Origin: Luteimonas huabeiensis HB2
GTDB lineage: Bacteria > Pseudomonadota > Gammaproteobacteria > Xanthomonadales > Xanthomonadaceae
Direction: 5' to 3'
Assembly (NCBI RefSeq): GCF_000559025.1
Contig: NZ_JAAN01000024.1
Span: forward strand, 1-64,000
Length of the DNA stretch: 64,000 bases
Part shown: piece by piece, positions 30,239-47,701 of the stretch
Position numbering within the stretch: the stretch's first letter is position 1
How the letters are laid out: each line of letters begins with the position of its first letter
The notes under the pieces: generated by a model
Database searches by the model: none
What the model saw: the letters and a program-made list of their open reading frames with translations, nothing else
Told to the model about the DNA's origin: nothing
Position numbers and translations under genes: made by a program

Positions 30239-30300
30239 CGACGGCGCCACCCAGGGCGCCGTCGTCCGGCAGTATAGCCGCCCGCCCCGGCACCGGTCAG
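30239..30300 (-). promoter_or_regulatory. Putative smc promoter with a 5'-leader hairpin
   Basis: On the minus strand CTGACC (30295-30300), 18 bp, TATACT (30271-30276). The predicted start falls near 30264, exactly where a perfect 10-bp stem begins: CGACGGCGCC (30239-30248) and GGCGCCGTCG (30255-30264) with a 6-nt loop. The transcript would therefore begin with a stable hairpin, about 110 nt before the smc start codon. No T-run follows, so it is not a normal terminator. Confidence 0.5.
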
Positions 30301-30360
30301 GCCATCGCGGCCGGTGGCGCGCTCACGGCGTCGCGCACGCATTCATGCAGAATTCCCCGG

Positions 30361-32229: not shown

Positions 32230-32296
32230 CGGCGCCCCGGCACGGCGCATCGCGCCCGTTCATGCCGAAACTGGGCTGCGCGTCCGCTAAATCGCG

Positions 32297-32324
32297 TTGA
32301 CGCGCGCGCGTCGCCGCCGATAGC
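32297..32324 (+). promoter_or_regulatory. Possible promoter of the thioredoxin/Cys-rich peptide pair
   Basis: TTGACG (32297-32302), 16 bp, GATAGC (32319-32324), 35 bp before the ATG at 32359. The -10 is weak. A strong GAAGGGAGGCGG ribosome-binding region follows. It suggests the pair can be expressed independently of the ABC gene. Confidence 0.35.
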
Positions 32325-32358
32325 GTGGCCGAAGACGACGAAGGGAGGCGGCGAGGCC

Positions 32359-32952
32359 ATGCGGCGGATTCCGTACCTGCAGATCGCGCTGGGCCTGGCG
32401 CTGGCCCTGGTGGCCGTGCTGGGCTGGCAGAACCACCGCCTGCGCGCCGACAACGACTGGCTGCTGCAGCGCGCCACGGCGCCCTACTACGGCATGTACG
32501 TGCCGGTGGTGGAGGTCGCCGCGCTGGACGGCGAGCGCCTGCGGCTGGGCGCGCCGGAGGGCGGCTTCCAGATCCTCTACTTCTTCGATGCGCACTGCCC
32601 GTATTGCCTGGAATCGGCGCCGAGGGTGCGCGAACTGGCGCGCCGCGCAGCCGGCCTCGGCGGCACCGTGCGCATGATCGGCCTGGGCAAGGGCGAGGAC
32701 GCCGAGATCGCCGCCTACGCCCGCGAACACGGCTTCGACTTCCCGGTGGCCGCGGTGCGCGATCGCCGCCTGCTGGCGCTGTACCGCGGCGACAGCGTGC
32801 CGCTGGCGATGCTGATCGGCCCGGACGGGCGCGTGCAGCACGCGCACCCCGGCCCCCTCGACACCATGGACCAGGTCGGTTCCCTGCTGGCCGCGATGCG
32901 CACGGACGCGCCGCCCGCGGCCGCACCCCAAGCCCAGGAGTCATCGCCATGA
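32359..32952 (+). CDS. Membrane-anchored TlpA-like thioredoxin with CPYC motif
   Basis: A 197-residue protein. One N-terminal membrane segment (IALGLALALVAVLGW) anchors it, with the rest outside the cytoplasm. The thioredoxin-like domain (about 45-185) has the redox motif Cys80-Pro-Tyr-Cys83 in YFFDAHCPYCLES and a likely cis-Pro segment (VPLAMLIGPDG). TlpA-type proteins reduce or oxidise disulfides of specific partners. The last codons overlap the ATG of a six-cysteine secreted peptide (ATGA), so the peptide is the obvious candidate partner. Confidence 0.88.
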   Translation: MRRIPYLQIALGLALALVAVLGWQNHRLRADNDWLLQRATAPYYGMYVPVVEVAALDGERLRLGAPEGGFQILYFFDAHCPYCLESAPRVRELARRAAGLGGTVRMIGLGKGEDAEIAAYAREHGFDFPVAAVRDRRLLALYRGDSVPLAMLIGPDGRVQHAHPGPLDTMDQVGSLLAAMRTDAPPAAAPQAQESSP

Positions 32953-33149
32953 AGCAGTCCAGGTTCTCCCCGCGCAAGGCGCTCCTCGCCGCCGGCTTCC
33001 TCGGCGTCATGGCCTTCGGTGGCGTCCAGGCCGTGGCCAGCGGCACCGCCTCGCAGTCTCAGGCGCGCCAGTGCAGTTCCATCTGCGAGCCCGATTGCCA
33101 GGGCTTCGGCGGCACCTACCGCGCCGGCGTCTGCTGGTGTTGCGGGTGA
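32949..33149 (+). CDS. 66-residue Cys-rich secreted peptide
   Basis: A 66-residue protein translationally coupled to the thioredoxin gene by a 4-bp overlap. It has a basic N-terminus and a hydrophobic signal or anchor (ALLAAGFLGVMAFGGVQAVA, 11-30). The short mature part has six cysteines at 42, 46, 50, 62, 64 and 65 (C-x3-C-x3-C-x11-C-x-CC) and ends CWCCG. Three disulfides or metal binding are possible. I do not recognise the family. The arrangement, TlpA-like protein plus a tiny signal-bearing Cys-rich peptide, recalls NVEALA-type peptides of Bacteroidetes, although that motif is absent here. Possible roles are bacteriocin/toxin-like peptide, signal, or metal trap. Confidence 0.75.
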   Translation: MKQSRFSPRKALLAAGFLGVMAFGGVQAVASGTASQSQARQCSSICEPDCQGFGGTYRAGVCWCCG

Positions 33150-33205
33150 TGCGATGAAGCCGCGGCGGGACGGGCGCCACGCCGCGCCCGTCCCGACGCG
33201 CGCGC

Positions 33206-33763
33206 TCAGCCCGGGAACAGCGCGCCCTGGTCGCCGGCCGGCGCGCCGTAGTCCAGGCGGCCGTCCACGATCCGCGCCGCCGCCGTGTACGGATGGAGCT
33301 GCGCCTTGCCGGGCGCCATCAGGTGCACGACCTCCCAGCCGCGCGCCTTGAAGTCGTCGGCGATCAGGCTGCGGTGGCAGCTCCACCACATCGCCTCCGC
33401 GCACATCACCGCCGTCGGACGTTCCAGCGCCGCATCCCCCAGGCGCGCCCGCGCGGCGGCATAGGCGGGCGTGTCCATGTAATCGGCGTAGCCGCGAAAG
33501 GCAGCGTTGCGCCAGGCGGTGTGCGGAGAATCCTCGCGCGGCCGGCGGCGGCCACCGAGTTCGGGCATCGGCAGGTAGCCGATCCCCGCGCCGGGCAGAC
33601 TGGCGGCCAGCGCCTCCGCCGCGTACTGCGGGTTGCGGCGCGAGCCGGGATAGCGCCGCACGTCGGCCACCGTAAAGATGCCGGCCTCGGACAGCATCCC
33701 CAGGAACACCTCCAGGGGGCGGGTGGAATGGCCGATGGTCCAGAGACGGGGTGCGCCGCGCAT
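33206..33763 (-). CDS. DUF488 family protein
   Basis: A 185-residue protein of the DUF488 family. It begins LWTIGHSTRPLEVFLGML, continues with VADVRRYPGSRRNPQY, and has the family signature AVMCAEAMWWSCHR, in which the C-E and C-H-R residues are conserved and suggest a nucleotide- or metal-related active site. The biochemical function is unknown. It diverges from fpr across a 106-bp gap holding a Fur-like palindrome. The start at 33763 fits the family N-terminus; the frame extends upstream into the fpr promoter. Confidence 0.88.
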   Translation of the reverse strand: MRGAPRLWTIGHSTRPLEVFLGMLSEAGIFTVADVRRYPGSRRNPQYAAEALAASLPGAGIGYLPMPELGGRRRPREDSPHTAWRNAAFRGYADYMDTPAYAAARARLGDAALERPTAVMCAEAMWWSCHRSLIADDFKARGWEVVHLMAPGKAQLHPYTAAARIVDGRLDYGAPAGDQGALFPG

Positions 33764-33810
33764 GCCGCTACCCTGCCACGGCCGTCGTGGAGGGCGCGCG
33801 CACCGCCTCC

Positions 33811-33838
33811 GATGAGAACCGCTCTCATCGTCTACAAT
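33811..33838 (+). promoter_or_regulatory. fpr promoter with Fur-like palindrome
   Basis: GATGAGAACCGCTCTCATC (33811-33829) has perfect 7-bp arms GATGAGA/TCTCATC. It differs at three central positions from the gammaproteobacterial Fur-box form GATGAGAATCATTCTCATC. The -10 TACAAT follows at 33833-33838, so the palindrome covers the -35/spacer and would repress when bound. The fpr ATG is 31 bp beyond the -10. Confidence 0.6.
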
Positions 33839-33869
33839 AGGCGGGTTTTCTCCCGGATCTGGCCCGCGC

Positions 33870-34664
33870 ATGTCCTCCGCATTCGGCACCGAGACGGTGC
33901 TCGACGTCCGCCACTGGACGGACGACTACTTCAGCTTCACCACCACCCGCGACGACGGCTTCCGCTTCGACAACGGGCAGTTCGTGATGATCGGCCTGGA
34001 GACCGAGGGCAAGCCGCTGCTGCGCGCCTACTCGATCGCCAGCGCCAACTGGGAGGAACAGCTGGAGTTCTTCAGCATCAAGGTGCCCGACGGCCCGCTG
34101 ACCTCGCGGCTGAAGAACATCCGTCCCGGCGACCGGATCGTGGTCGGGCGCAAGCCCACCGGCACCCTGCTGATCCACGACCTGCACCCGGGCCGCAACC
34201 TGTATCTGCTCGGTACCGGCACCGGGCTCGCGCCGTGGCTGTCGATCGTCAAGGACCCGGAGACCTACGAGCGCTTCGAGCGGGTGATCCTGTGCCACGG
34301 CGTGCGCCGCACCGCGGACCTCGCCTATCGCGACTACTTCGTCAACGAGCTGCCGCAGCACGAGTTCCTGGGCGAGCAGATCGCGGCGAAGCTGCGCTAC
34401 TACCCGGCCGTCACCCGCGAGCCCTTCGTCTTCGGCGGCCACGATCACCAGGGCCGGCTGACCGCGCTGATGGAGAGCGGTCGCATGATGGAGCACCTGG
34501 GCATCGAGCCGCTGGACCCGGAACACGACCGCGCGATGATTTGCGGCAGTCCGCAGATGCTGGCCGACTTCCGCGCCCTGCTCGACGCCCGCGGCTTCTC
34601 GCCGGCGCCGCGCATCGGCACGCCCGGCCAGTACGTGTTCGAGCGCGCGTTCGTCGAGCGCTGA
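33870..34664 (+). CDS. fpr: Ferredoxin--NADP reductase
   Basis: A 264-residue flavoprotein of bacterial FPR type. The FAD-binding motif RAYSIASANW is near residue 50, the NADP-binding segment LLGTGTGLAPW is near 113, and the C-terminus ends VFERAFVER, matching the subclass that lacks a terminal aromatic. It transfers electrons between NADPH and ferredoxin or flavodoxin and supports oxidative-stress defence and iron-sulfur metabolism. It is monocistronic by spacing, with a Fur-like promoter palindrome. Confidence 0.94.
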   Translation: MSSAFGTETVLDVRHWTDDYFSFTTTRDDGFRFDNGQFVMIGLETEGKPLLRAYSIASANWEEQLEFFSIKVPDGPLTSRLKNIRPGDRIVVGRKPTGTLLIHDLHPGRNLYLLGTGTGLAPWLSIVKDPETYERFERVILCHGVRRTADLAYRDYFVNELPQHEFLGEQIAAKLRYYPAVTREPFVFGGHDHQGRLTALMESGRMMEHLGIEPLDPEHDRAMICGSPQMLADFRALLDARGFSPAPRIGTPGQYVFERAFVER

Positions 34665-34757
34665 CCGCGGGCGACGCGCGGCGTCCGCGTTCCCGCCGCG
34701 CGGTCCGCGATCGCGGGCGCGGCCTGGGGCGCCGTTCCACAGTGCCTCGGCGGCGTC

Positions 34758-34763
34758 TACAAT
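34758..34763 (+). promoter_or_regulatory. -10 element of the uspA-like gene
   Basis: TACAAT in the context GTCTACAAT, the same nine bases as at the fpr promoter. It lies 27 bp before the ATG at 34791, with GGGAGAA as ribosome-binding site. No convincing -35 was found. Confidence 0.45.
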
Positions 34764-34790
34764 CCGGACAGTTTCCGGGAGAACCGCCAC

Positions 34791-35210
34791 ATGAAGATCG
34801 TCGTCGCCGTGGATGGCAGCGAAATCAGCCAGCGCGCCGTCAAGTTCGCGATCAAGCTCGCGCGCGCCACCGCCAAGGCCCGGATCACCGTGGTCGCGGT
34901 GAACCCGGAGCTGTTCCCGGGCGTGGAGCGCAAGATCGGCGCCGAAGCCGCCGCCCGCCACCACGCCGAATCGCACGACGCGCTGCTGGGCCCGGCGCTC
35001 AAGACGCTGGCCCGCGCCAAGGTCGAGTTCACCGAGCGGCGCGAGATCGGCGACATCGCCGCCACCATCCTCGACGTGGCGCACAAGAGCCGCGCCGACC
35101 TGATCGTCATGGGCTCGCACGGCCGCGGCGCGGTCAAGGGCATGCTGCTGGGCTCGGTCTCGGGCAAGGTGCTGGCGCAGTCCGACGTGCCGGTGACCAT
35201 CGTCCGCTGA
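34791..35210 (+). CDS. Universal stress protein (UspA family)
   Basis: A 139-residue single-domain Usp. The ATP-binding signature G-2x-G-9x-G-S is present in GSHGRGAVKGMLLGSVS (108-124), and the N-terminal KIVVAVDGSE strand-loop is typical. ATP-binding Usps help survival under stress and energy limitation. It lies in a redox/stress neighbourhood (fpr, glutathione peroxidase) with its own promoter. Confidence 0.93.
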   Translation: MKIVVAVDGSEISQRAVKFAIKLARATAKARITVVAVNPELFPGVERKIGAEAAARHHAESHDALLGPALKTLARAKVEFTERREIGDIAATILDVAHKSRADLIVMGSHGRGAVKGMLLGSVSGKVLAQSDVPVTIVR

Positions 35211-35235
35211 AGCCGCGCCGGTCCGCCGCCGGCCC

Positions 35236-35736
35236 TCAGGCGCCCGGCGGCGGCTGCGCCAGCGCGCGCTCCAGCGCGCCCGCGAGGGCTTGCGGGCGCC
35301 GCGCCGGACCATAGCGGCGCAGCGGCCGGCCGTCGCGGCCGATCAGGAACTTGGTGAAGTTCCACTTGATCGCGCGCGTGCCCAGCACGCCGCGGCGCGC
35401 GTCCTGCAGCCAGCGCCACAGCGGGTGCGCGCCCGGCCCGTTGACCTCGACCTTGGCGAACATCGGGAAATCCACCCGGTAGCGCAGGTCGCAGAACGCG
35501 CGGATCGCCTCCGCGTCGCCCGGCTCCTGCGCGCCGAACTGGTTGCACGGAAAGCCCAGCACGACCAGGCCCCGCTCGCGGTAGCGCGTCCACAGCGCCT
35601 GCAGCCCGGCGTACTGCGGGGTGAAGCCGCAGGCCGAGGCCACGTTCACCACCAGCGCGACCTGGCCGCGATAGCGCGCCAGCGGCGCGGGGCCGCCTTC
35701 GAGGTCGACGGCATCGAAGTCGTAGAGGGTCGGCAT
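35236..35736 (-). CDS. Glutathione peroxidase (cysteine type), cytoplasmic
   Basis: A 166-residue GPx. The peroxidatic residue is Cys36 in NVASACGFTPQ, with Gln66 (GFPCNQFGAQ) and Trp125-Asn126 (KWNFTKF) completing the tetrad. It reduces hydroperoxides using thioredoxin or glutathione. No signal peptide is present. The start at MPTLYDFDAV is the conserved N-terminus; the frame is open upstream. It is convergent with the uspA-like gene. A second GPx with a changed motif is at 56739. Confidence 0.93.
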   Translation of the reverse strand: MPTLYDFDAVDLEGGPAPLARYRGQVALVVNVASACGFTPQYAGLQALWTRYRERGLVVLGFPCNQFGAQEPGDAEAIRAFCDLRYRVDFPMFAKVEVNGPGAHPLWRWLQDARRGVLGTRAIKWNFTKFLIGRDGRPLRRYGPARRPQALAGALERALAQPPPGA

Positions 35737-35891
35737 GGCGGGTTGCGGGCGGGCGGCCCAGTCTATCCCGCGAAGGCGCGCCCGTGCGCCCCCGCGGAGG
35801 CCCGCCCCGGTACCGCCTGTGCCGATGGTCACGGGCCCCGGCCCCGGCCGGCGGGGTATTCTTCGGGGTTCCGCCGTTCCAGGATTCGCCG

Positions 35892-38123
35892 ATGAAGCAT
35901 CCGCTCAGCCTGGCGCTCGCCGCCGCCATCGCCGGCCTCAGCGCCCCCGCCCTCGCCCTTGCCCAGGACGCCGCGCCCGCGCAGGCGGCCGCGCCCGCGC
36001 AGGCGCAGCAGGACAACCCCTTCTTCCAGGCCAGCCCGCTGGATCTGCAGTACCCGCAGTTCGACCGCATCCGCGACGAGCACTTCGCCCCGGCCTTCGA
36101 CGCCGGCATGCGCGAGAACCTGGCCGAGATCGAGCGCATCGCCGCCAATCCCGAGCCGCCGACGTTCGACAACACCATCGTCGCGCTGGAGAAGTCGGGC
36201 CAGTTGCTCGGCCGCGCGCTGCGCGTGTTCTACAACCTGGTCGGCGCCGACACCAACGACGCGCGCAAGCGGCTGCAGGCCGAGTACTCGCCGAAGCTGG
36301 CCGCGCACCGCGACGCGATCTCGCTCGACCCGCGGTTGTTCGCGCGCATCAAGACCCTGTACGACACCCGCGCCTCGCTGGGCCTCGACGCCGAGGGCAC
36401 GCGCCTGGTCGAGCAGTACTACAACGATTTCGTACGCGCCGGCGCGCAGCTCGACGAGGCGCAGAAGGCGCGCCTGAAGGAGATCAACGCCGAGCTCGCC
36501 ACCCTCGGCACCACCTTCAGCCAGAACGTGCTGGCCGAGGTCAACGATTCGGCGGTGGTGGTCGATACCCGCGAGGAACTGGACGGCCTGACCGAACAGC
36601 AGATCGCCGCCGCCGCCGAGGCGGCGAAGTCGCGCGGGCTGGCGGGCAAGTACGTCATCACCCTGCTCAATACCACCGGCCAGCCGCCGCTGTCGCAGCT
36701 GACCGACCGCGACCTGCGCCGCCGCATCCACGAGGCCTCGGTCGCCCGCGGCGCGCGCGGCAACCAGTGGGACAACACCGCCATCGTCTCGCAGGTGCTG
36801 CGCCTGCGCGCGGAGCGCTCGCGGATGCTGGGCTTCCCCACCACCGCCCACTACGTGCTCGCCGACGAGACCGCCAAGACCCCGGAGGCGGTCAACGACA
36901 TGCTCGGGCAGCTCGCCCCGGCCGCGGTGGCCAATGCGCGCCGCGAGGCCGCCGAGCTGCAGCGCATGATCGACCAGGAGCAGGCCGCTAAGGGCGAGCC
37001 GAGCTTCGAGCTGGCCGCCTGGGACTGGGCTTTCTATTCCGAGAAGGTGCGCCAGGCCAAGTACGAGTTCGACGAGGCCCAGCTCAAGCCCTACCTGGAG
37101 ATGGTGAACGTGCTGGAGAACGGCGTCTTCCACGCCGCCAATCAGTTCTACGGCATCAGCTTCAAGCAGCGCACCGACCTGCCGCTCTATCACCCCGACA
37201 CCCGCGTCTACGACGTCTTCGACGCCGACGGCAGCCAGCTGGCGATCTTCATCTTCGACCCCTACGCGCGCGAGTCCAAGCGCGGCGGCGCCTGGATGAA
37301 CTCCTACGTCTCGCAGTCGTCGCTGATGGGCACCAAGCCGGTCGTGGCCAACCACCTCAACATCCCCAAGCCGCCGGCCGGCGAGCCGACGCTGCTGACC
37401 TGGGACGAGGTCACCACGATGTTCCACGAGTTCGGCCATGCGCTGCACGGCATGTTCTCCGACGTGACCTATCCCTACTTCAGCGGCACCAGCGTGCCGC
37501 GCGACTTCGTGGAATTCCCCTCGCAGGTCAACGAGATGTGGGCGGACTGGCCGAGCATCCTCGCCAACTACGCCAAGCACTACGAGACCGGGGAGCCGAT
37601 GCCGCAGGCGCTGCTGGACAAGGTGACCGCCGCCGCCCAGTTCAACCAGGGCTTCGCCACCACCGAATACCTGGCCGCGGCGATGCTCGACCAGCGCTGG
37701 CACCAGACCCCGGCCGAGCAGATCCCCGACGCCGACGGCGTGGTCGCCTTCGAGGCGCGCGCGCTCGCCGCCGACGGCATCGACTACGCGCCGGTGCCGC
37801 CGCGCTACCGCACGCCCTACTTCAGCCACATCATGGGCGGCTACGCGGCCGGCTACTACGCCTACATCTGGTCCGAGGTGCTCGATGCCAACACGGTGAA
37901 GTGGATCGAGGAACACGGCGGCCTGACCCGCGCCAACGGCGACCGCCTGCGCGCGACGCTGCTCTCGCGCGGCGGCAGCCGCGACGCGCTGCAGCTGTTC
38001 CGCGATTTCGCCGGCCACGAGCCGGACATCCGGCCGCTGCTGGTCAAGCGCGGCCTGGTCGCCACCGCCGACGACTCCGCCGCGCCGGAATCGGCCGAGC
38101 CCGTGCCCGGCAACGACGACTGA
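35892..38123 (+). CDS. dcp: Periplasmic M3 family peptidyl-dipeptidase (Dcp/OpdA type)
   Basis: A 743-residue M3 metallopeptidase with a Sec signal (MKHPLSLALAAAIAGLSAPALA) and an Ala/Gln-rich linker. Zinc ligands are His512 and His516 in HEFGH, with catalytic Glu513 and third ligand Glu541 (DFVEFPSQ). Late residues HIMGGYAAGYY... match substrate-binding segments of Dcp. It cleaves dipeptides or short peptides in the periplasm. The last 20 or so residues are an acidic tail. Oligopeptidase A is the alternative, but the signal peptide favours an exported Dcp-type enzyme. Confidence 0.93.
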   Translation: MKHPLSLALAAAIAGLSAPALALAQDAAPAQAAAPAQAQQDNPFFQASPLDLQYPQFDRIRDEHFAPAFDAGMRENLAEIERIAANPEPPTFDNTIVALEKSGQLLGRALRVFYNLVGADTNDARKRLQAEYSPKLAAHRDAISLDPRLFARIKTLYDTRASLGLDAEGTRLVEQYYNDFVRAGAQLDEAQKARLKEINAELATLGTTFSQNVLAEVNDSAVVVDTREELDGLTEQQIAAAAEAAKSRGLAGKYVITLLNTTGQPPLSQLTDRDLRRRIHEASVARGARGNQWDNTAIVSQVLRLRAERSRMLGFPTTAHYVLADETAKTPEAVNDMLGQLAPAAVANARREAAELQRMIDQEQAAKGEPSFELAAWDWAFYSEKVRQAKYEFDEAQLKPYLEMVNVLENGVFHAANQFYGISFKQRTDLPLYHPDTRVYDVFDADGSQLAIFIFDPYARESKRGGAWMNSYVSQSSLMGTKPVVANHLNIPKPPAGEPTLLTWDEVTTMFHEFGHALHGMFSDVTYPYFSGTSVPRDFVEFPSQVNEMWADWPSILANYAKHYETGEPMPQALLDKVTAAAQFNQGFATTEYLAAAMLDQRWHQTPAEQIPDADGVVAFEARALAADGIDYAPVPPRYRTPYFSHIMGGYAAGYYAYIWSEVLDANTVKWIEEHGGLTRANGDRLRATLLSRGGSRDALQLFRDFAGHEPDIRPLLVKRGLVATADDSAAPESAEPVPGNDD

Positions 38124-38145
38124 CGCCCGCGGACTGGTGTCGCGG

Positions 38146-38175
38146 CAGGCCGTCCGGGGCGACCCGGGCGGCCTG
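38146..38175 (+). terminator. Hairpin downstream of the M3 peptidase gene
   Basis: CAGGCCG (38146-38152) and CGGCCTG (38169-38175) form a stem with further inner pairing (CCGGG/CCCGG), 23 bp past the stop; TCGCGTTTCG follows. It lacks a real T-run, so its strength is doubtful. Confidence 0.4.
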
Positions 38176-38853
38176 TCGCGTTTCGGGGCCCGCTCGATCG
38201 TCCGCCCCCCCCGACCGGGCCGGCGCGAACGCGCGGCCGGCCCGTTCGTCGGGCGCGGAAGCCCTCGCACGCCTTGCGACGCCCGCCGGACGTTGACCCG
38301 ACCGGTCTCCTGGGATAGAAGTGCGGGCAGGCAGCGACGCGCGGTTGCCTGCTGAATGGGCCGACGCCGTCGCCGAGAAGCTGGAGACTTCGATCTGCGA
38401 GGCCGTCCGATGGACATGGACAACGGCGACGCACGCCCGCTCGCCCCTCCGGACGGCGCCGTCGCGAGCGACCGGCGCTCCGGACCGGGACCCGAAACCG
38501 CGCCGCTAGCGGCCCGGCGCGATACCGGGTGGACCGTGGCGGCCCGCCGCCCGTGCGGCCGATCCGAGGCCGCAGCGACCCGCCCCGTATCGCCTGCGCT
38601 CCGGTGGCGTCGTGCCCGGCGCCATGCGCGCCGTTTCTCGACAGTCCCCCCGCCGCGCCACGATCCGACGAACGCGCCGACGGTGCGCCCGACCGGGCGA
38701 TCGCCGGCGCTTCTCCATGGCATCTCGACCGCCGCCGCTGCGCGCGCGATGCCGCACCGTCCTCGGCGCGGGCGGGCATCCATCCGTCGGCCCCATGGGA
38801 GCAGCACCCCGGTTTGACTCGAGATTCCAGGACCGAATCGCAAGGAGACCGCA
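38176..38853 (+). other. Long non-coding leader before the methyltransferase fusion
   Basis: About 680 bp with no convincing gene, the longest gap in the window. A possible promoter is TTGACC (38293-38298) with GATAGA (38314-38319) at 15 bp, about 535 bp before the fusion start. A 12-bp perfect palindrome GCCGCTAGCGGC lies at 38502-38513. A rightward open frame from about 38356 to 38817 encodes an Arg/Pro-rich product without recognisable features and is probably fortuitous. The region may be a long 5' leader, hold a small RNA, or be debris from an insertion. Confidence 0.4.
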
Positions 38854-41343
38854 ATGGCCAGCGTCGCGCAGCAAGCTTGCAAGACCGTATCGGATCAGGA
38901 ATGGTCCCTGAGCACCTACATGGAGTTCTACGAGCGGGTCCTCGGCCCCCGCCTCTTCAAACCGTACGGAGAACTCCTGGTCCGGGAAATCCGACAAGAC
39001 ATCCGTCCCGACGCGCCCCCTCGCGACGTGCTCGAGGTCGCATGCGGGACCGGCCGCATCACCACGCATCTTTACGAGGATCTGGCCAAGCCGCTGAACC
39101 TGCGGCTCGTGGCCACGGACCTGTCGAAGATCACCATCGAGATCGCGAAGAAGGCCGTCAGCGAAGAGCTTCGGCGCAACGTCGTCTTCCGCGCCGACGT
39201 GGACATGGCCGACATGCCCTTCGAGGACGACAGCTTCGACGTCATCGTCTGCGGCTTCGGCCTGATGTTTCCTCCGGACAAGGCACGGGTCGCGCGGGAA
39301 TTCAGGCGGGTGCTGCGCCCGGGAGGCCGCATCTACGGCACCGTGTTCCAGTACAACGAACTGTTCGAGCTGACCCGCCAGCTCTCCCGGGAGCGCTTCG
39401 GGACCCCGTCGGCCATCATGAACGCGGCCCTCAGCCTGGCCGATCCTGCTCCCATCATCCAGGCGTTCTCCCTGGAAGGGCTGTGCCGGGGCATCGACGA
39501 GGTCGCGACCTCGCATCCCCTGACCTTCCACCTGGACGACGACGACACGCGCGAGTTCCTCTTCAACGCCTGCATCCTCCTGGAAGAATTCAACCAGTGC
39601 GACGCGGCTGCCCGGCAGCGCTACCTCGATCTGATGCTCGGCGAACTGCATGCGCACGTACCGTCCCGCCACTACCGGGTCAGCGCCTGGCTGCTTCGCG
39701 CGCAGGTCGACGAGGCCGCCAAGGAGGCGGTGGCCGTGCCGAGCCGGGCGCCCGACTTCTCGGAACTGAGCGCCTTCATCCGGCTCGCGCCCGAGCGCGC
39801 CGAGAGCGGGGAGGACGAGGCGCTGCCGCCCGAGGACGCCCGATCGCTGCAGCCCTACCGTGCCCTGAAGGCGGCCTTCCTCGCCGAATGCCCGACCTAC
39901 CCCTACGCCGAGGCGGAGGCGCTGCGCAACGGCGAGTTTTCGCGGCTGGACGCCCACCAGGTCGCCTACCTGGATCACGTCGGCGCCGCCCTGCCCCCGG
40001 AGTGTCTGCTCGAGGACGACTATCGGGCGCTCCGGCGCGACATCCTGGGGAACCCGCACAGCGGCTCGAAGCCCTCCGCCGCAGCCCTGGAAAGGGCCCG
40101 CACGGCGATCTACCGCTTCTTCGGCTGCACGCCGGACGAATACGAAATCGTGTTCACGCCCAACGCAAGCGGCGCCATCCGGCTGGTAGCGGAATCCTTC
40201 CCCTTCGAGCCCGGCTCGGAGCTGCTGCTCGCCAAGGACAACCACACCTCGGTCCACGGCATCCGCGAATACGCGCGCGCCAAGGGGGCCTCGGTGAAGT
40301 ACGTCCCGTTGGACCAGCAACTGCTGATCGTCGAGGCCTCGATGCAGCGCGCGCTCGAGACGCTGCCGCCGGGCCGCCCGCATCTGCTGGCCTACCCCGC
40401 GCAGTCGAACGCCACCGGCGCCAGGCACGATCTGAAGTGGATCCGGCTCGCCCAGGAACGCGGCGCCATGGTGCTGTGCGACGCCGCGGCGTTCGTGCCC
40501 CAGTGCAAACTGGACTGTTCGGTGCATCGTCCGGACTTCGTGCCGGTCTCGTTCTACAAGATATTCGGCCATCCCACCGGTGCCGGGTGCCTCCTCGCGA
40601 GGAGATCGTCCCTGCGCAAGCTGACGCCGCCGTCCTTCGCGGGCGGCGCCGTGTGCTACTACTCCGGCCCCTGGTCGCCGACGGACCGGCTGCTCTACCA
40701 CGACGACTGGAAGCGCTTCGAGGTCGGCACGCCCAACTACGCGTCCTTCCACGCCATCGCCCAGGGCTTCGAGTTCGTCTCCCGGCTGGGGCTCGAGCGC
40801 ATCGGCGCGCGCTCGGCGACGCTGGCGAGATGGCTGGAACGGCAGCTGGCGGAGCTCCGGCACGACGTCCGGAGCCGATCCCCGCTGTGCTGCATCTACG
40901 GCCCCCCGGCCGAGCACAAGGGCGCGACGGTCATGCTGAACTTCTTCGATTGCGACAACGCCCCCATCCCGCACGCGCTGATCAAGCGGCTCGCCGAGCC
41001 CTTCGGCATCGTGCTGCGCAACGGGTGCTTCTGCAATCTGGGCGCGGTGCAGCACGCCACCTACGTCTCGGCCGGAACGGAATACTGCGAGCTCGACAAG
41101 ACCGAGAAGATCCTCGACTGCGCCGCCTTCGACGAAAAGATTCTCGAAAAGGGCGACTGCGGCGCCGTCCGCGTCTCCTTCGGGCTCGGCTCGAACTTCA
41201 GGGACGCCTACCGCTTCTATCTTTTCGCCAGGTGCCTGCTGAACGTCGAGGTCGCGCGGCTGGCCGATGCGCGGACGCCTGGGCGCGCGGACCGACCGCC
41301 TCCCCCCAGCGCCCTCCCGAACGATCAGCGCGCAGCGACGTAG
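38854..41343 (+). CDS. Fusion of SAM-dependent methyltransferase and Moco-sulfurase-like PLP cysteine desulfurase
   Basis: An 829-residue two-domain protein with an excellent ribosome-binding site (AAGGAG, seven bases before the ATG). Residues about 20-290 are a class I methyltransferase: motif I VLEVACGTGRIT (59-70), acidic ATDLS (87-91), and FDVIVCGFGLMFP. Residues about 365-800 are a class V aminotransferase fold closest to the N-terminal domain of molybdenum-cofactor sulfurase: YLDHVGAALPP, NPHSGSKPS, DNHTSVHGIREYA, PAQSNATGARHD, PLP-pairing Asp543 (LCDAAAF), PLP Lys569 (SFYKIFGHPTGAG), FEVGTPNYASF, and GCFCNLGA with Cys725 and Cys727, the site of the persulfide cysteine in Moco sulfurases. 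The MOSC domain is absent. It could mobilise sulfur from cysteine and methylate the sulfurated product, but the substrate is unknown. Base composition looks slightly less GC-extreme than its neighbours, hinting at transfer. Confidence 0.85.
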   Translation: MASVAQQACKTVSDQEWSLSTYMEFYERVLGPRLFKPYGELLVREIRQDIRPDAPPRDVLEVACGTGRITTHLYEDLAKPLNLRLVATDLSKITIEIAKKAVSEELRRNVVFRADVDMADMPFEDDSFDVIVCGFGLMFPPDKARVAREFRRVLRPGGRIYGTVFQYNELFELTRQLSRERFGTPSAIMNAALSLADPAPIIQAFSLEGLCRGIDEVATSHPLTFHLDDDDTREFLFNACILLEEFNQCDAAARQRYLDLMLGELHAHVPSRHYRVSAWLLRAQVDEAAKEAVAVPSRAPDFSELSAFIRLAPERAESGEDEALPPEDARSLQPYRALKAAFLAECPTYPYAEAEALRNGEFSRLDAHQVAYLDHVGAALPPECLLEDDYRALRRDILGNPHSGSKPSAAALERARTAIYRFFGCTPDEYEIVFTPNASGAIRLVAESFPFEPGSELLLAKDNHTSVHGIREYARAKGASVKYVPLDQQLLIVEASMQRALETLPPGRPHLLAYPAQSNATGARHDLKWIRLAQERGAMVLCDAAAFVPQCKLDCSVHRPDFVPVSFYKIFGHPTGAGCLLARRSSLRKLTPPSFAGGAVCYYSGPWSPTDRLLYHDDWKRFEVGTPNYASFHAIAQGFEFVSRLGLERIGARSATLARWLERQLAELRHDVRSRSPLCCIYGPPAEHKGATVMLNFFDCDNAPIPHALIKRLAEPFGIVLRNGCFCNLGAVQHATYVSAGTEYCELDKTEKILDCAAFDEKILEKGDCGAVRVSFGLGSNFRDAYRFYLFARCLLNVEVARLADARTPGRADRPPPPSALPNDQRAAT

Positions 41344-42446
41344 CCGCCCGGCACGCCGCCGGGCGAAAGCACCAGCTGCCAGAGCTGGATCGAGCGTGCG
41401 CGGAAGCTGGCCATGGAGCCGGCCAGGTAGAACAGCCACATGCGCCGGAAGCGCTCGTCGTAGCGCGCCGGCAGCCGCGACCATGCCGCTTCGATGTTGT
41501 CGCGCCAGGCCTGCAAGGTGCGATCGTAGTCGGCGCCGAAGTTGTGCCAGTCCTCGATCACGAAACGCCCTTCCAGCGCGCGCGTGACCTGCGCCGCCGA
41601 CGGCAGCATCGAATTGGGGAAGATGTACCTGGCGATCCACGGATCGGTGCGACTGCGGGAACGGTTGCCGCCGATGGTATGCAGCAGGAACAGGCCGTCG
41701 GGCGCCAGGCAGCGCCGGGCGACGCGGAAATAGGTACGGTAGTTGCGCACCCCGACGTGTTCGAACATGCCGATCGACACGATGCGGTCGAAGCGCTCGT
41801 CCAGCGCGCGGTAATCCTGCAGGCGGATCTCCACCGGCAGCCCGGCGCACAGCGCGCGCGCGTACTCGGCCTGCTCGCGCGAGACCGTCAGCCCCACGCC
41901 TTCAACGCCGTAGCGCTCGGCCGCGTACTTCAGCATCTCGCCCCAGCCGCAGCCGATGTCGAGCAGGCGCATGCCGGGCCGCAGGCCGAGCTTGCGGCAG
42001 CAAAGATCGAGCTTGGCCTCCTGCGCGGCGTCGAGATCGCGGGCCTGGCGCCAGTACCCGCAGCTGTAGACCAGCCGCGCGCCCAGCATCGCGGCGTAGA
42101 GATCGTTGCCGAGGTCGTAGTGGCGCTCGCCGACCTCGAAGCTGCGCCGGCCGGCCTGCGGATTGCCCCAGCGCGCGCGCAGCGCGTCGGCCAGTTCGCC
42201 GGCGCCGCGCACCCGCTCGCCGAGACCGGACCGGATCAGCCGCAGCAGCAGTTCGTCGAGCGCCTCGGTGCGCCACCAGCCGTCCATCCAGCTCTCGCCC
42301 AGGCCGAGCGAGCCCTGCGCGAGCACGCGCCGGTAGAAGCGTTCGTCTTCGACCCGCAGGTCCCATGGGCGGTCGCCGTCGACGCGCACGTCGGCTTCCG
42401 CCAGCAGGGCCTCCACGCGTCGCCGGAAACGGTCTGCGCTGGCCAT
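41325..42446 (-). CDS. cfa: Cyclopropane-fatty-acyl-phospholipid synthase
   Basis: A 373-residue SAM-dependent enzyme. FEVGERHYDLGNDLY (about 103-117), Y-S-C-G-Y-W (127-132), SAM motif LLDIGCGWGEM (161-171), and SIGMFEHVGVRNY are hallmarks of the family. It adds a methylene group from SAM across unsaturated acyl chains of membrane lipids. Its 3' end overlaps the convergent methyltransferase fusion by 19 bp. The C-terminal helical region WLFYLAGSMASFRARSIQLWQ is typical. Confidence 0.94.
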   Translation of the reverse strand: MASADRFRRRVEALLAEADVRVDGDRPWDLRVEDERFYRRVLAQGSLGLGESWMDGWWRTEALDELLLRLIRSGLGERVRGAGELADALRARWGNPQAGRRSFEVGERHYDLGNDLYAAMLGARLVYSCGYWRQARDLDAAQEAKLDLCCRKLGLRPGMRLLDIGCGWGEMLKYAAERYGVEGVGLTVSREQAEYARALCAGLPVEIRLQDYRALDERFDRIVSIGMFEHVGVRNYRTYFRVARRCLAPDGLFLLHTIGGNRSRSRTDPWIARYIFPNSMLPSAAQVTRALEGRFVIEDWHNFGADYDRTLQAWRDNIEAAWSRLPARYDERFRRMWLFYLAGSMASFRARSIQLWQLVLSPGGVPGGYVAAR

Positions 42447-42519
42447 GGTACGACCCGGAAGCGGCCGGCCCTTGCCCGGCCCGGCGCCAGTCTACGCCAT
42501 GAACGGGCGCCGGTGCGCC

Positions 42520-43383
42520 TCAGGCGACCGGCGCGGCGGCGAACAGGTCGCGGTACTCGTCGGCCACGTGCGGCAGCAGCACCTCGGCGGGGACTTCCAC
42601 GCTCTGGGTGCCGTCGGCGTACGGTCCCACCTGGTAGGGCGGGAACACGAACCGCAGCGCCTCGATACGGCCGCCGGCGCCGAGCACCGGCTCGAACAGC
42701 TCGAACTTGTCCGCGGCCGGGGCCGATCCCTCGTCGATCATCCGGCCGCCGGTACGCAGCAGCTGGCTGCGCTCGACCGGCTCCAGCTCCTCGGCGTCGA
42801 TCCGCTGCGACAGCGCCGCGTACAGCGCCTCGCGCACATAGGCCGAAACGTCGCGCCAGCCGGCCTCGTCGGCAATCAGCTCGCGGGCCTGCAGCATCCG
42901 CGACTGCGCCGGCAACCAGACGAAGCGCGCGACCAGCGGGTTGCCGTGCGCGCCGCCGGTGTAGCTGCTGCCGTCGGCGGCCACCGCGACCAGCCGCGGG
43001 GTCTCGGCCAGCATGCGGAACTCCAGCGAGAGATCGTACAGGGCGCCGCCGGTGCCCTCGCCGGCCGCGGCCGCGGCCTGCAGCAGTTCCTCGCGCGCGG
43101 CCTGCGCGTAGCGCTCCAGCTCGGCCGCCAGGCCCGGATACTTCTTCGCCTCGGGCGGATAGCTGATGCCCACCACGTAGCGCGGCGTGCGCTCGATGAC
43201 ATCTTCCAGCGCCGGCGGCGCCGCCGGCCCGTCCGCGGGCGTTTCCGCAGGCGCGGCCGGTGTCGTCGCATTCCCGGCGACAGGCGCCGGTTCCTCTTCG
43301 CGCCGGCAACCGGCCAGGGCCAGGACCAGGACGAACGCCGGTGCCAGCACCGGTGCGATCGGGCGCAGCCGCCACAGCTTCAT
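42520..43383 (-). CDS. DUF3298/RsiV-like periplasmic lipoprotein
   Basis: A 287-residue protein with a lipoprotein signal ending LALAGC (Cys26), a Pro/Ala linker, then an N-terminal DUF4163-like part (SLEFRMLAETPRLVAVAA) and a DUF3298-type C-terminal part (SSYTGGAHGNP near 143-153, then FVFPPYQVGPYADG near the end). In RsiV-type anti-sigma factors and PdaC proteins this region binds lysozyme or cell-wall ligands. Here there is no sigma factor nearby, so the role is unclear. The start at 43383 gives the signal peptide. Confidence 0.85.
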   Translation of the reverse strand: MKLWRLRPIAPVLAPAFVLVLALAGCRREEEPAPVAGNATTPAAPAETPADGPAAPPALEDVIERTPRYVVGISYPPEAKKYPGLAAELERYAQAAREELLQAAAAAGEGTGGALYDLSLEFRMLAETPRLVAVAADGSSYTGGAHGNPLVARFVWLPAQSRMLQARELIADEAGWRDVSAYVREALYAALSQRIDAEELEPVERSQLLRTGGRMIDEGSAPAADKFELFEPVLGAGGRIEALRFVFPPYQVGPYADGTQSVEVPAEVLLPHVADEYRDLFAAAPVA

Positions 43384-43523
43384 GTTCGGTAGTTCCCCAT
43401 CGATGCGTGATGCCGCGAGGCTAGCCGCGGCGGTGTGAGGATGCCATGCAAGGCGCCCGCGCGCGAACGCCCGACGCCGCCGCGGCACCGCCGTCTCCAT
43501 CGCCGGCCCGTGCCGTGGCCACG

Positions 43524-43550
43524 AAAAAGCCCGGCCGAATGGCCGGGCTT
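43524..43550 (-). terminator. Rho-independent terminator of cspA
   Basis: On the minus strand a perfect 10-bp stem AAGCCCGGCC / GGCCGGGCTT with a 4-nt loop is followed by a T-run (the A-run at 43524-43528 on the plus strand). It lies 24 bp past the cold-shock gene stop. Confidence 0.9.
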
Positions 43551-43573
43551 CTCGTTCCGCCTTGCGGCAGGAA

Positions 43574-43783
43574 TTACAGCGGCTGGACTTCGTCCGCCTG
43601 CAGGCCCTTCTGGCCCTGGACGACCTTGAAGGAAACCTTCTGGCCTTCCTGCAGCGACTTGAAGCCGGTGCCCTGGATCGAACGGAAGTGGACGAAGACG
43701 TCCTGGCCGCTCTCGGGGGTGATGAAGCCGAAGCCCTTGGCGTCGTTGAACCACTTCACGGTGCCGGTCTGACGATCGGACAT
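43574..43783 (-). CDS. cspA: Cold-shock protein (CspA family)
   Basis: A 69-residue cold-shock domain. RNP1 KGFGFI (16-21) and RNP2 VFVHF (29-33) are intact. It binds single-stranded nucleic acid as an RNA chaperone. The ribosome-binding site AAGGAG is strong and the gene has its own terminator. The 245-bp region upstream (43784-44028) contains no gene and is AT-richer than the surroundings, consistent with a structured cold-shock mRNA leader. The exact paralogue type (CspA, CspD, etc.) cannot be decided. Confidence 0.95.
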
Positions 43784-44028
43784 TGGTGTTACTCCTTGGA
43801 ACTAACAGTGTTTTGGATTGGACACGGCCCGCGGTGCGAACCGAGACTGTCGAGCAAGGGGTAACGCGAAAGCGATGGAGCGGATCCCCGGCCGGGGTCA
43901 CCGGACCGTACAGCGTCGATCTACCGCATCGGAGCCACGATGTACCGTGATCCCGGCTTTGAACAGTGGTTGCACAATACCCTACTTCTGCGCTCGTGTG
44001 TGAATAGGGGGCGCGAGATGCGGCGGGC

Positions 44029-44298
44029 TCAGGCCAGCAGGTCCGCCGCCTCCGGGTGGCGGCGGAACCAGGCCTGGGCGTACGCGCAGCGCGGTTCCAC
44101 CTTGAGCCCCTCGGCCCGCGCGTAGTCGAGCGCGGCCTCGGTCAGCGCCCCGGCGATGCCGCGGCCGCCGACGGCCTCGGGCACGACCGTGTGCAGGATC
44201 GCCAGGCGCCCGTCCTCGCGCCCGTATTCCAGATGCGCGCGAACGCCCTCGACCACGGTCTCGAACAGGCCCCGGCGCGGATCGTGCTCGATGCGCAT
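44029..44298 (-). CDS. Small GNAT-type N-acetyltransferase (YidJ/YjdJ-like)
   Basis: An 89-residue minimal acetyltransferase. HTVVPEAVGGRGIAGALTEAAL holds the R/Q-x-x-G-x-G/A-type acetyl-CoA loop (GGRGIAGAL) in the compact form used by the Acetyltransf_CG family. The C-terminal CAYAQAWFRRHPE is also characteristic. The substrate is unknown. It begins one base after the stop of the Lys/Ala-rich protein gene, so the two are cotranscribed; lysines of that protein are a conceivable target. Confidence 0.85.
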   Translation of the reverse strand: MRIEHDPRRGLFETVVEGVRAHLEYGREDGRLAILHTVVPEAVGGRGIAGALTEAALDYARAEGLKVEPRCAYAQAWFRRHPEAADLLA

Positions 44299-44299
44299 C

Positions 44300-45241
44300 T
44301 CACTCGTCTCCCGGCGCGCGCCGATGGTCGCGGCGGCCCTGGTTGAGCCGGTCGCGGGTGCTGTTGCTGCCGTGGATCGCCGGCAGTCGCGCCTCCGCCT
44401 CGTGCAACTGCTCGGCGCGCCGGGCCGCGGCATCGGACTGGTAGCCCGGCTGCGCCGCGCCGCCCTCGCCGTGCGCGACCGCCTCCCAAGGCTTGGGCTC
44501 GCGATCGCGGGCCTGCTTGGCCTCCAGCAGCGCGCGGGTGCGCTCCAGCGCCTGCTCTGGCGTGATGCGGGCACGGCGTGTCGCGCCCTTGCGCGGCACC
44601 GCGGCGCCGCCGGCGGATCCCGCGGCGGCCCGCTTGCGCCCGCTCGCGGCCGGCTTGCTTCCGCGGCTGGCCTCGCCGGCGGCCTTTGCGGCAGTCTTCG
44701 CGATCTTGCGGCCGGCCGCGGTCGCGCCAGCCGCCGTCTTCCCGGCCGTCGTCTTCGCGGCTGTCGTCTTCGCGGTCTTCCCGGTCGTCTTCCTGGCGGT
44801 CTTCTTCACGGCGGTCTTCTTCGCAGCCGCTTTCTTCGCGGTGCCCGAACGCCCGGTCGTGGATGGCTTCGCCGCCGCGCCGCGCTTGGCCGGCGCCTTG
44901 CGTGCGGCCGAAGCCGTCGCCGTCCTGGCGACGGCGCGACCGACCTGTTTGCGCTGATCCTCGAACCGCGCCAGCACGTCGGCCAGCAGCTCGGCCTTGT
45001 CCTTGCTGCGCTGGTTGGCCGCGCCGCTGGCGCCGCGCTTGCTGCCGGTGCGATCGCGCGAGGCGAGCTTCTGCCGCTGCACCAGGTCACGCGCGCGGTT
45101 GCGCGCCTCGCGCGCCCGCACGATGCGGCTGTCCAGCGCCTTGGCGTCGAGCTTGCGCAGGACGTTGACGCGGCTGTCGTCGTACAGCGCCATCTCCCTC
45201 TGGTTGAGCAGGGCGCTGGCGCGCGCGCGGGTGATCGGCAT
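44300..45241 (-). CDS. Lys/Ala-rich histone H1-like protein
   Basis: A 313-residue protein in three parts. The N-terminal 100 residues are charged and helical with a conserved look (LYDDSRVNVLRKLDAK, KAELLADVLARFEDQRK). Residues about 101-226 are low-complexity Lys/Ala/Thr (repeats such as AAAKKTAVKKTA) resembling eukaryotic H1 tails and bacterial AlgP/HctB-type nucleoid proteins. A 90-residue C-terminal segment (ITPEQALERTRALLEAKQ to the end) is non-repetitive. The basic core probably binds DNA or other polyanions. Flanking structured parts suggest a specific partner. It is followed directly by a GNAT. Confidence 0.8.
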   Translation of the reverse strand: MPITRARASALLNQREMALYDDSRVNVLRKLDAKALDSRIVRAREARNRARDLVQRQKLASRDRTGSKRGASGAANQRSKDKAELLADVLARFEDQRKQVGRAVARTATASAARKAPAKRGAAAKPSTTGRSGTAKKAAAKKTAVKKTARKTTGKTAKTTAAKTTAGKTAAGATAAGRKIAKTAAKAAGEASRGSKPAASGRKRAAAGSAGGAAVPRKGATRRARITPEQALERTRALLEAKQARDREPKPWEAVAHGEGGAAQPGYQSDAAARRAEQLHEAEARLPAIHGSNSTRDRLNQGRRDHRRAPGDE

Positions 45242-45316
45242 CGGCTCGTCTCCGGTGATGGGGTGGCCGCGAGGAGTAGCACAGCCCCCATGCAGTCCGG
45301 GTGAGCGCTGGCGCGA

Positions 45317-45931
45317 TCAGAACGACGGATTCGCGAGCCGGCCGAGGAAGCTGCCGATCACCCTGGGCTCCATCATCACCGTGAAGAGGACGCCGTAGCC
45401 GGCGCCCCACAGGTGCGCGCTATGGTTGACGTTGTCGCCGCCGCGGCGATCCATCCAGATCGAGTAGCCGACGTAGGCGACCGCGTAGAGGATCGCCGGC
45501 ATGGGGATGAAGAACACGAAGATCAGCGACCACGGGCTGAGCAGCACGAACGCGAACAGCACCGCCGAGACCGCGCCCGAGGCGCCGAGGCTGCGGTAGT
45601 GCGGGTCGTGCCGATGGCGCAGGTAGGTGGGCAGGATCGCCACCAGGATCGCCGACAGGTAGAACAGCACGAAGCCCAGCTTGCCGATGTAGGGCTCGAA
45701 GGCGCGCTCGATCAGGCCGCCGAAGAAGAACAGCGTGATCATGTTGAACAGCAGGTGCTGCCAGTCGGCATGGATGAAGCCGTGGCCGATCAGGCGGTCG
45801 TACTGGCGCTGGCGATCGATCGCCGGCGGCCACAGGATCAGCCGCTCCAGCAGCCGCGGGTTGTTGAACGCCTGCCACGACACCAGCACGGTGATCGCGA
45901 TCAGGATCATGGTCACGGGACCGGAAATCAT
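45317..45931 (-). CDS. Rhomboid family intramembrane serine protease
   Basis: A 204-residue polytopic protein with six predicted membrane segments. The catalytic dyad is Ser118 in LGASGAVSA and His173 in NHSAHLWGA. The conserved HxxxN of the second helix is present in HADWQHLLFN. It cleaves substrate membrane helices. The natural substrate is unknown. The next gene in the same direction is the POT transporter, 21 bp upstream, so they may be cotranscribed. Confidence 0.93.
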   Translation of the reverse strand: MISGPVTMILIAITVLVSWQAFNNPRLLERLILWPPAIDRQRQYDRLIGHGFIHADWQHLLFNMITLFFFGGLIERAFEPYIGKLGFVLFYLSAILVAILPTYLRHRHDPHYRSLGASGAVSAVLFAFVLLSPWSLIFVFFIPMPAILYAVAYVGYSIWMDRRGGDNVNHSAHLWGAGYGVLFTVMMEPRVIGSFLGRLANPSF

Positions 45932-45952
45932 CGGGCGGTGTCCTCGCTGGGG

Positions 45953-47584
45953 TCAGGCGGTGCGGTAATTGTCCTGCATGGGATAGCGCCGCGCGTAGAG
46001 CGCGAACGCGGCCGCGGCGAGGAAGGCGAAGCCGGCGAAGAAGAACATCAGGAACGCGTTCTCGCTCAGCCCGCTGCCGGCGATCCAGGCAGTGGCCGCG
46101 TCGCTGCGCACGCCGGCGTTGGTCAGCAGCACCCACAGGCTGCCGAAGGTGCTGGTGAGGTACCAGAAGGCCATGATCACGCCCTTCATCGCGTGCGGCG
46201 CCTGGCTGTAGGCGAACTCCAGCGCGGTGGCCGAGACCAGCACCTCGCCGAAGGTCAGCAGCAGGTAAGGCAGCGCCTGCCAGCTCAGCGAGACCTGCTC
46301 GCCGTCGTCGATCCAGAGCTGGATCGCGCCGGCCGCGATCCAGGCCACGCCCGAGAACGCGATGCCCCAGCCCATGCGCCGCAGCGCGGTGGGCTCGAAA
46401 CCGAGACGGCGCAGCGCCGGGTACAGCACCAGGTTGTTGAACGGGATCAGCAGCATCACCAGCAGCGGGTTCAGCGCCTGCATCTGCGCCGCGTCCTGGA
46501 TCAGCCAGCTCGGCCACCAGGCGGCCTCGTGCGGGATCACCATCTCGCGGCCCTGGATGATCCAGGTCGAGGCCTTCTGGTCGAACAGCGACCAGAACGG
46601 CGTGACCAGCGCGAACACGATCAGCACGCGCAGCACCGCGCGCACGCCGTCGACCGCCGCGTCCGGGTGCAGGCCGCGCGCGCGCTCGAGCTGCATCGAG
46701 GCGCCGACGCCGCCGGCGACGATGATCGCGCCCAGCGCCAGGCAGGCCGAGATCACGAAGTTGAAGGATTCCGCCCAGGCGGCCGGGACGATCCCCAGCA
46801 CGGACAACGCCCACAGCGCGAGCAGCAGCACGGCCACCGCGATGCCGAACAACGCGACCAGCAGGCCGGGCCGGCCGGCGCCCGCCCGCTCGGCGCGCAG
46901 CGCGGTCTTGACCACCTCGAAGAACGCATGCGGATCGCGCCGGGCCGGCGGCACGTTGACGTAGTGCCTGCGGCCCAGCCAGAACACGAAGGTGGCGATG
47001 AACATCAGCACGCCGGGAATGCCGAATGCGACCGCCGGCCCGTAGTGGCGCAGGAACAGCGGCGCCAGCAGCGAGGCGAAGAAGGAACCGAAGTTGATGA
47101 TCCAGTAGAACGCGTCGAAGACGACCTTGGCCTTGTCCTTGTTGCTCTGGTCGAACTGGTCGCCGCAGAAGGACACCACCAGCGGCTTGATGCCGCCCGA
47201 ACCGAGCGCGATCAGGAACAGGCCGGTGTAGAAGCCGGTGGCGTTGTTCTCGAACAGCGCCAGGCAGGCGTGGCCGGCGCAGTAGATCAGCGAGAACCAC
47301 AGGATGGTGTGGTACTTGCCGAAGAAGCGGTCGGAGAGCCAGCCGCCCAGCAGCGGGAAGAAGTACACGCCGATGACGAAGGTGTGGAAGACGTCCTTGG
47401 CGGCGCCGTCGCGATCGCCCTCGGGCAGATAGGCCAGCAGCACCGAGCTGATCAGGAACGGCACCAGGATGTTGCGCATGCCGTAGAAGCTGAAGCGCTC
47501 GCAGGCCTCGTTGCCGATGATGTAGCCGATCTGCCGGGGCATGCGGCCGGACGGGTTCGGGAGTGCGGGACTGGGCTGGGACAT
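45953..47584 (-). CDS. Proton-dependent oligopeptide (POT/PTR) transporter
   Basis: A 543-residue MFS protein of the POT family with about 12-14 membrane spans. The proton-coupling motif ExxERFxxYG is present (NEACERFSFYG), followed by GGWLSDRFFG and the signature-like segment FDAFYWIINFGSF. It imports di- and tripeptides. It fits functionally with the peptidases in the window (M3, M14). The ATG at 47584 gives the normal short cytoplasmic N-terminus. Confidence 0.93.
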   Translation of the reverse strand: MSQPSPALPNPSGRMPRQIGYIIGNEACERFSFYGMRNILVPFLISSVLLAYLPEGDRDGAAKDVFHTFVIGVYFFPLLGGWLSDRFFGKYHTILWFSLIYCAGHACLALFENNATGFYTGLFLIALGSGGIKPLVVSFCGDQFDQSNKDKAKVVFDAFYWIINFGSFFASLLAPLFLRHYGPAVAFGIPGVLMFIATFVFWLGRRHYVNVPPARRDPHAFFEVVKTALRAERAGAGRPGLLVALFGIAVAVLLLALWALSVLGIVPAAWAESFNFVISACLALGAIIVAGGVGASMQLERARGLHPDAAVDGVRAVLRVLIVFALVTPFWSLFDQKASTWIIQGREMVIPHEAAWWPSWLIQDAAQMQALNPLLVMLLIPFNNLVLYPALRRLGFEPTALRRMGWGIAFSGVAWIAAGAIQLWIDDGEQVSLSWQALPYLLLTFGEVLVSATALEFAYSQAPHAMKGVIMAFWYLTSTFGSLWVLLTNAGVRSDAATAWIAGSGLSENAFLMFFFAGFAFLAAAAFALYARRYPMQDNYRTA

Positions 47585-47701
47585 CGGCACGGTTCGCGGC
47601 GGAAAGACGCGCAAGCGTAGCCGATCCGGCGGCCGTGTCGCCCGCCGGATCGGGGGGCGCCCCTCGGTTACCATGCCGGCTGCCCGTCCGGATGCCCGCC
47701 G

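Follow-up and report, generated by a model that had tools for sequence, protein, structure and literature searches.

A methyltransferase fused to a class V PLP domain of cysteine desulfurase type in Luteimonas huabeiensis HB2 and ten other genomes

The window, that is, the whole analysed stretch of 64,000 nucleotides from Luteimonas huabeiensis HB2, carries between dcp and cfa a gene that joins a SAM-dependent methyltransferase domain to a class V PLP domain in one polypeptide. The gene, its domains and its upstream region are located as follows.

38124-38853, no strand: 730 bp without a predicted gene, 5' of the fused gene (codon-usage gene picks)
38842-38847, + strand: ribosome-binding site AAGGAG, read from the sequence and ending 6 nt 5' of the ATG
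38854-41343, + strand: methyltransferase / class V PLP fusion gene, 829 aa (ORF list, Pfam, full-length homologues)
39028-39336, + strand: class I SAM methyltransferase core, aa 59-161, with motif I LEVACGTG at aa 60-67 and acidic D89 (Pfam)
39967-41040, + strand: class V PLP domain of cysteine desulfurase type, aa 372-729 (Pfam, SufS alignment)

The frame is single and unbroken, with no internal stop in its translation, and Pfam recognises both domains within the one product, Methyltransf_25 at E 3.5e-19 (aa 59-158) and Aminotran_5 at E 8.8e-40 (aa 372-729). A preliminary description of this DNA had proposed a genuine two-domain polypeptide on the basis of the motifs VLEVACGTGRIT, DNHTSVHGI, PAQSN, SFYKIFGHPTGAG and GCFCN, all of which were recovered, and the architecture is borne out. 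Its statement that a MOSC domain is missing agrees with Pfam, where MOSC (at E of at most 0.001), rhodanese, EgtD-type and metallopterin domains are absent from the 10 families listed for the protein. The ribosome-binding site is present as it had described. The gene-free region that it placed upstream holds as far as codon-usage gene picks are concerned, but short frames do occur there in the mechanical ORF list. A crude scan of these 730 bp gave no match to a sigma-70-like promoter. At its 3' end the frame and the convergent cfa gene share 19 bp (41325-41343), and the C-terminal tail of the protein (aa 801-829) is unconserved in the alignment of fused and stand-alone proteins. The genome holds one full copy of the fused gene; its six other matches are all partial, at 28-38% identity.

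Motif I and the acidic residues of a class I SAM-dependent methyltransferase are present in the N-terminal half, and E61, G65, T66, G67, D89 and D117 are invariant in all six fused proteins that were aligned. Membership of the EgtD family is not suggested by its sequence. Among solved structures its best matches are methyltransferases of mixed function that act on N or O, so homology does not indicate the acceptor atom. When this half was searched alone in a 250-genome sample of the order, relatives of at most 45% identity over about 140 residues were found in 11 genomes, in addition to two genomes with the fusion.

The PLP half is of the cysteine desulfurase type, as the preliminary description had proposed. 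In a comparison with SufS structures, its K569, D543, H464 and C727 align with the Lys, Asp, His and loop Cys of SufS, and these four residues have catalytic roles in SufS. Judged by this alignment, the half holds the PLP lysine, Asp, His and persulfide-forming cysteine of a SufS-like class V desulfurase.

40558-40560, + strand: PLP lysine K569, aligned with the SufS lysine and invariant in 19 proteins
41026-41028, + strand: C725 of GCFCN, opposite a His in SufS and invariant in 19 proteins
41032-41034, + strand: C727, opposite the loop (persulfide) cysteine of SufS and invariant in 19 proteins

The active site had been placed at Lys569 and Cys725; the lysine stands as the PLP lysine, but the persulfide cysteine of SufS aligns with C727, and C725 takes the position of the His. 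All five residues (K569, D543, H464, C725 and C727) are invariant across 10 fused and 9 stand-alone proteins, and the loss of a catalytic residue in close homologues, named beforehand as a ground for abandoning the proposal, was therefore not seen. The closest solved relatives of the PLP half are cysteine desulfurases, with best E values of 1.4e-27 and 7.5e-31 in two PDB comparisons; the aminotransferase-like protein FGM3 is a weak match (E 7.4e-8). Identity to desulfurases was about 24-28% in the searches of plasmid and phage records. The best NCBIfam match is the SufS model TIGR01979, which scores 122.9 bits against a curated cut-off of 475.1, and no model among the best 25 of 42 passes its own cut-off. 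Because of this score, the protein is classed here as desulfurase-type and not as SufS. It is like SufS-type desulfurases in the fold predicted from sequence and in the four aligned residues, and differs from them by the N-terminal methyltransferase, the GCFCN loop and many added cysteines, besides the score below the cut-off.

The cysteines are a distinctive feature of the fused proteins, which have 13-16 of them in the PLP region (aa 356-800) against 5-10 in the nine stand-alone proteins. Twelve cysteines are invariant in the PLP half of the fused clade; only C725 and C727 are also invariant among the stand-alone proteins, and nine of the twelve are never Cys there. Three fusion-specific ones lie in a C-terminal stretch.

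41086-41160, + strand: stretch with C745, C756 and C769, invariant in 10 fused proteins and never Cys in the 9 stand-alone ones

Of the 829 positions, 411 are invariant among the 10 related fused proteins, so that any one invariant cysteine is poor evidence by itself and the number of cysteines tells more. These residues might form a sulfur relay or a metal site, as far as sequence goes.

A full-length homologue is encoded by 7 of the 395 genomes in the family sample (the window genome included), by 4 of 20 in the genus to which G116 belongs and by 6 of 91 in genus g29. In total 11 genomes in three genera carry the fusion, among them Lysobacter antibioticus HS124 and L. enzymogenes ATCC 29487, and the ten others are 63-76% identical to the window protein. 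The fused proteins of G116 and G217 are identical, so that 10 distinct fused proteins were used in the comparisons. The search of domain architectures that had been suggested returned the complete fusion as well as stand-alone relatives of either half, and a stop or frameshift between the domains, another ground on which the proposal might have failed, is contradicted by ten further loci with open frames and no stop inside. Samples of the order (299 genomes), phylum (398) and class (369) added no fusion to those already known and gave PLP relatives only, with the class sample yielding a match in G1133 (35% over 300 residues). None of the 318 plasmid records with a match spans 80% of the fused protein, nor does any of the 17 phage records with distant desulfurase-type matches; scans of viral sequences with the protein and with the PLP alignment confirmed no relative.

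In the tree, the PLP halves of the 10 distinct fused proteins fall into a single clade with a support of 100/100, so that an artefact is no explanation of the fusion. The stem of this clade is 1.49 changes per column long, a long branch that, according to a warning on the tree, meets the Embleya row. Along such a stem a shift in chemistry may have taken place.

Outside the fused clade, the PLP half is closest to stand-alone proteins of about 38-44% identity, including two on plasmids (Embleya and Gemmatirosa) and one more from the class sample. Eight of the ten stand-alone loci (L030-L036 and L038, from genomes of the order and the Gemmatirosa plasmid) possess the same array, in the order two-domain rhodanese, two Sulf_transp halves, rhodanese-like protein and PLP protein. 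The array is absent from Embleya (L037) and from a 7.2-kb contig (L114). We take the Sulf_transp family to include the YeeE/TsuA thiosulfate importers, and the array as a whole is a candidate operon for sulfur import and transfer. Its presence beside the stand-alone relatives lends independent support to sulfur chemistry. YeeE (TsuA) and thiosulfate are the subject of PMC11073785. The rhodanese-like protein matches Rhodanese in L030 and L038; that of L031 has no Pfam match and was named by its 38% identity to the L030 counterpart. The PLP frames of L034-L036 measure 596-597 aa and probably have wrong starts, because their first part overlaps the preceding rhodanese-like gene. No gene of the array was found near the 11 fused genes, within 30001-50000 of the window and within 13-19 kb around the ten others.

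The site of the fused gene was compared across the genus by means of cfa. A close cfa match was present in 32 of 52 genomes; 30 of the 33 matches were recovered as loci, 29 of them besides that of the window. Within at most 1.5 kb to either side, the fused gene is in none of these 29, and in 11 of them the tail of dcp lies beside cfa, at a spacing of about 70-320 bp in eight, as measured by the ends of homology. The nearest congener, G1008 (L040), matches the window at 93% in cfa and at 97% over the last 115 residues of dcp, with flank homology ending at 38193 and restarting at 41327.

38194-41326, no strand: segment of about 3.1 kb that the nearest congener lacks between dcp and cfa (comparison with G1008)

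As the segment is missing at the site in 11 comparable congeners, it was either gained in the window genome or lost elsewhere. The preliminary description had regarded the gene as lying in acquired DNA; the absence from the 11 congeners is in favour of this, but composition gives no support, with GC3 of 0.90 in the fused gene, 0.97 in dcp and 0.91 in cfa. At the position of the fused gene, G1008 has a gene that Pfam assigns to the Sir2 family, and frames between cfa and dcp in L052 and L054 resemble it by eye, the site being variable in the genus. A sirtuin remnant in the 730 bp upstream of the fused gene was considered and rejected, since the matches cover query residues 10-138 and the Sir2 part spans residues 208-410. 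Within the window-specific segment, a 31-bp match to G1008 (38451-38481, E 4e-4) and weaker ones (E of at least 0.005) were taken as chance similarities of GC-rich DNA.

The surroundings of the gene also differ between hosts. Once the fused gene is masked, its flanks in the window have no DNA match to any of the 10 other fused loci, and the DNA upstream of the window gene has one 25-bp match (E 7e-4) to seven of them. Five loci of genus g29 have common flanks and the sixth (L019) shares none. Altogether the gene occurs in six different surroundings across 11 genomes, a pattern as of a mobile or repeatedly relocated gene, and no partner gene is common to all hosts.

The fused gene of L. antibioticus HS124 (as of G217) and that of L. 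enzymogenes ATCC 29487 each lie next to a gene for a single-module NRPS of the architecture AMP-binding / carrier / NAD_binding_4 (thioester reductase), hereafter A-T-reductase. Such an architecture yields an aldehyde. The gene is on the same strand as the fused gene in the former strain and divergent from it in the latter, and the two proteins are 50% identical. Four A-T-reductase genes were located, of which three adjoin a fused gene.

L014, 3808-6873, - strand: single-module A-T-reductase NRPS gene
L015, 11182-14247, - strand: single-module A-T-reductase NRPS gene
L017, 11249-14335, + strand: single-module A-T-reductase NRPS gene
L098, 8076-11414, - strand: single-module A-T-reductase NRPS gene

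Among the matches listed, near-full-length relatives (at least 49% identity) occur in four of 32 chosen genomes. One genome, G263, has the A-T-reductase gene and no fused gene was found in it by the search of the genus of G116. A universal partnership was rejected: three of the 11 fused genomes have the gene and eight, that of the window included, are without it among the matches listed. The A-T-reductase NRPS is a lineage-specific lead and not a required partner.

The reading that we favour, at slightly better than even confidence, is a bifunctional enzyme whose PLP half would mobilise cysteine sulfur through K569 and C727 and whose SAM half would methylate the acceptor or the product. We infer the desulfurase activity, the methyl acceptor and the product. 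The class V domain would desulfurate L-cysteine, or a cysteine derivative akin to it, by means of K569, the sulfur would be carried as a persulfide on C727, and methylation of the acceptor or product would give a methylated, probably sulfur-containing small molecule; in some Lysobacter, the enzyme may act beside the A-T-reductase NRPS, which would supply an aldehyde. The long stem of the fused clade, the SufS score far under its cut-off and the sulfur array not found around the fused genes (13-19 kb, or 30001-50000 of the window) weigh against this reading. S-methylation of the sulfur product by the attached methyltransferase is plausible. A more specific form of the proposal is rather doubtful: a one-polypeptide sulfur-methylating synthase, in which the persulfide, perhaps relayed via C745, C756 and C769, is capped with the methyl group of SAM, so that cysteine and SAM would yield a methylthio or methyl-persulfide product.

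Each proposed step has published precedent in another context. The metallopterin-dependent ergothioneine synthase MES has a C-terminal cysteine desulfurase that feeds an N-terminal tailoring domain in one polypeptide (PMC9516567); it combines a metallopterin domain with a NifS/IscS-like desulfurase, whereas the fused protein combines a SAM methyltransferase with a SufS-related domain. A natural desulfurase-rhodanese fusion is described from Pseudorhodoferax (PMC8931425), where the acceptor domain is a rhodanese and not a methyltransferase; rhodanese genes adjoin the stand-alone relatives in this study. GnmP is a hydropersulfide methyltransferase that acts after the chemistry of a PLP SH domain (PMC8479088), and thus resembles the proposal in PLP sulfur chemistry followed by SAM-dependent S-methylation, but the proteins are separate and the thiocysteine lyase domain lies inside a PKS. 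No description of a methyltransferase-cysteine desulfurase fusion was found in open-licence PMC full text. Cysteine desulfurases occur in fusion with sulfur-accepting domains (MOSC, rhodanese, metallopterin), to which a SAM methyltransferase would be an addition. The conserved fusion would directly link sulfur mobilisation to methylation, in a compact enzyme that may make methylated sulfur metabolites.

Both domains may instead be active in separate steps, with the methyl group placed on something other than the sulfur-bearing product and the fusion merely co-localising them. The desulfurase step is common to this and the favoured reading, so the two are not exclusive, and we consider it possible without being probable. 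The linker (aa 301-350) is weakly conserved, with a mean top-residue fraction of 0.47 when gapped columns count as 0, and no structure shows contact between the two sites; an AlphaFold2 model of the fusion from three sequences has a mean pLDDT of 33.8. Against it speaks the persistence of the fusion in three genera and six surroundings, unsplit in 11 of 11 genomes. Genomes with the PLP half only and those with the methyltransferase half only do not overlap either, in two samples that are possibly of different genomes.

It is unlikely that the PLP half, as part of a natural-product pathway, has switched to another class V reaction (such as decarboxylative carbon-carbon coupling, transamination or that of a C-S lyase), with the methyltransferase as an ordinary O-, N- or C-tailoring enzyme. 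The long stem of the fused clade and the weak match to FGM3 would suit such a change, as would the A-T-reductase neighbour in two Lysobacter, whose aldehyde would fit PLP carbon-carbon chemistry. However, K569 and the C727 loop are invariant, the best desulfurase match stands about 20 orders of magnitude above FGM3, the stand-alone relatives adjoin sulfur genes, and the A-T-reductase gene is missing, among the matches listed, from most of the fused genomes (8/11).

A Moco sulfurase serving enzymes of the xanthine oxidase family is highly improbable. GCFCN and the other motifs of the PLP half presumably resemble the motif series of eukaryotic Moco sulfurases, and such a shared series would favour the idea. 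Like the fused protein, MOCOS/ABA3 has a desulfurase domain joined to a second domain (PMC2997495), and ABA3 carries a persulfide on the conserved Cys430 (PMC3916724). The fused protein has an N-terminal methyltransferase in place of MOSC, and no molybdoenzyme was found among the neighbours scanned with Pfam and NCBIfam. A chance or assembly fusion of two genes is refuted, to near certainty, by 10 other genomes, three of them assembled into a single contig, in which the whole frame is open and its product 63-76% identical.

Besides the favoured bifunctional enzyme and its rivals, a few neighbouring genes deserve mention. A sigma-54 activator gene is common to L016 (13662-15398, +) and five g29 loci (e.g. 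L018:15454-16809, -); as a partner it was rejected, lying 2-4 kb off and having no match in the remaining fused loci at the threshold used, and it was taken as a common regulator type. Genes for a FAD-binding oxidase and an SDR lie farther upstream of the A-T-reductase gene of L014, on the same strand, and in L. enzymogenes a separate methyltransferase gene follows the A-T-reductase gene (L017:14812-15756, +).
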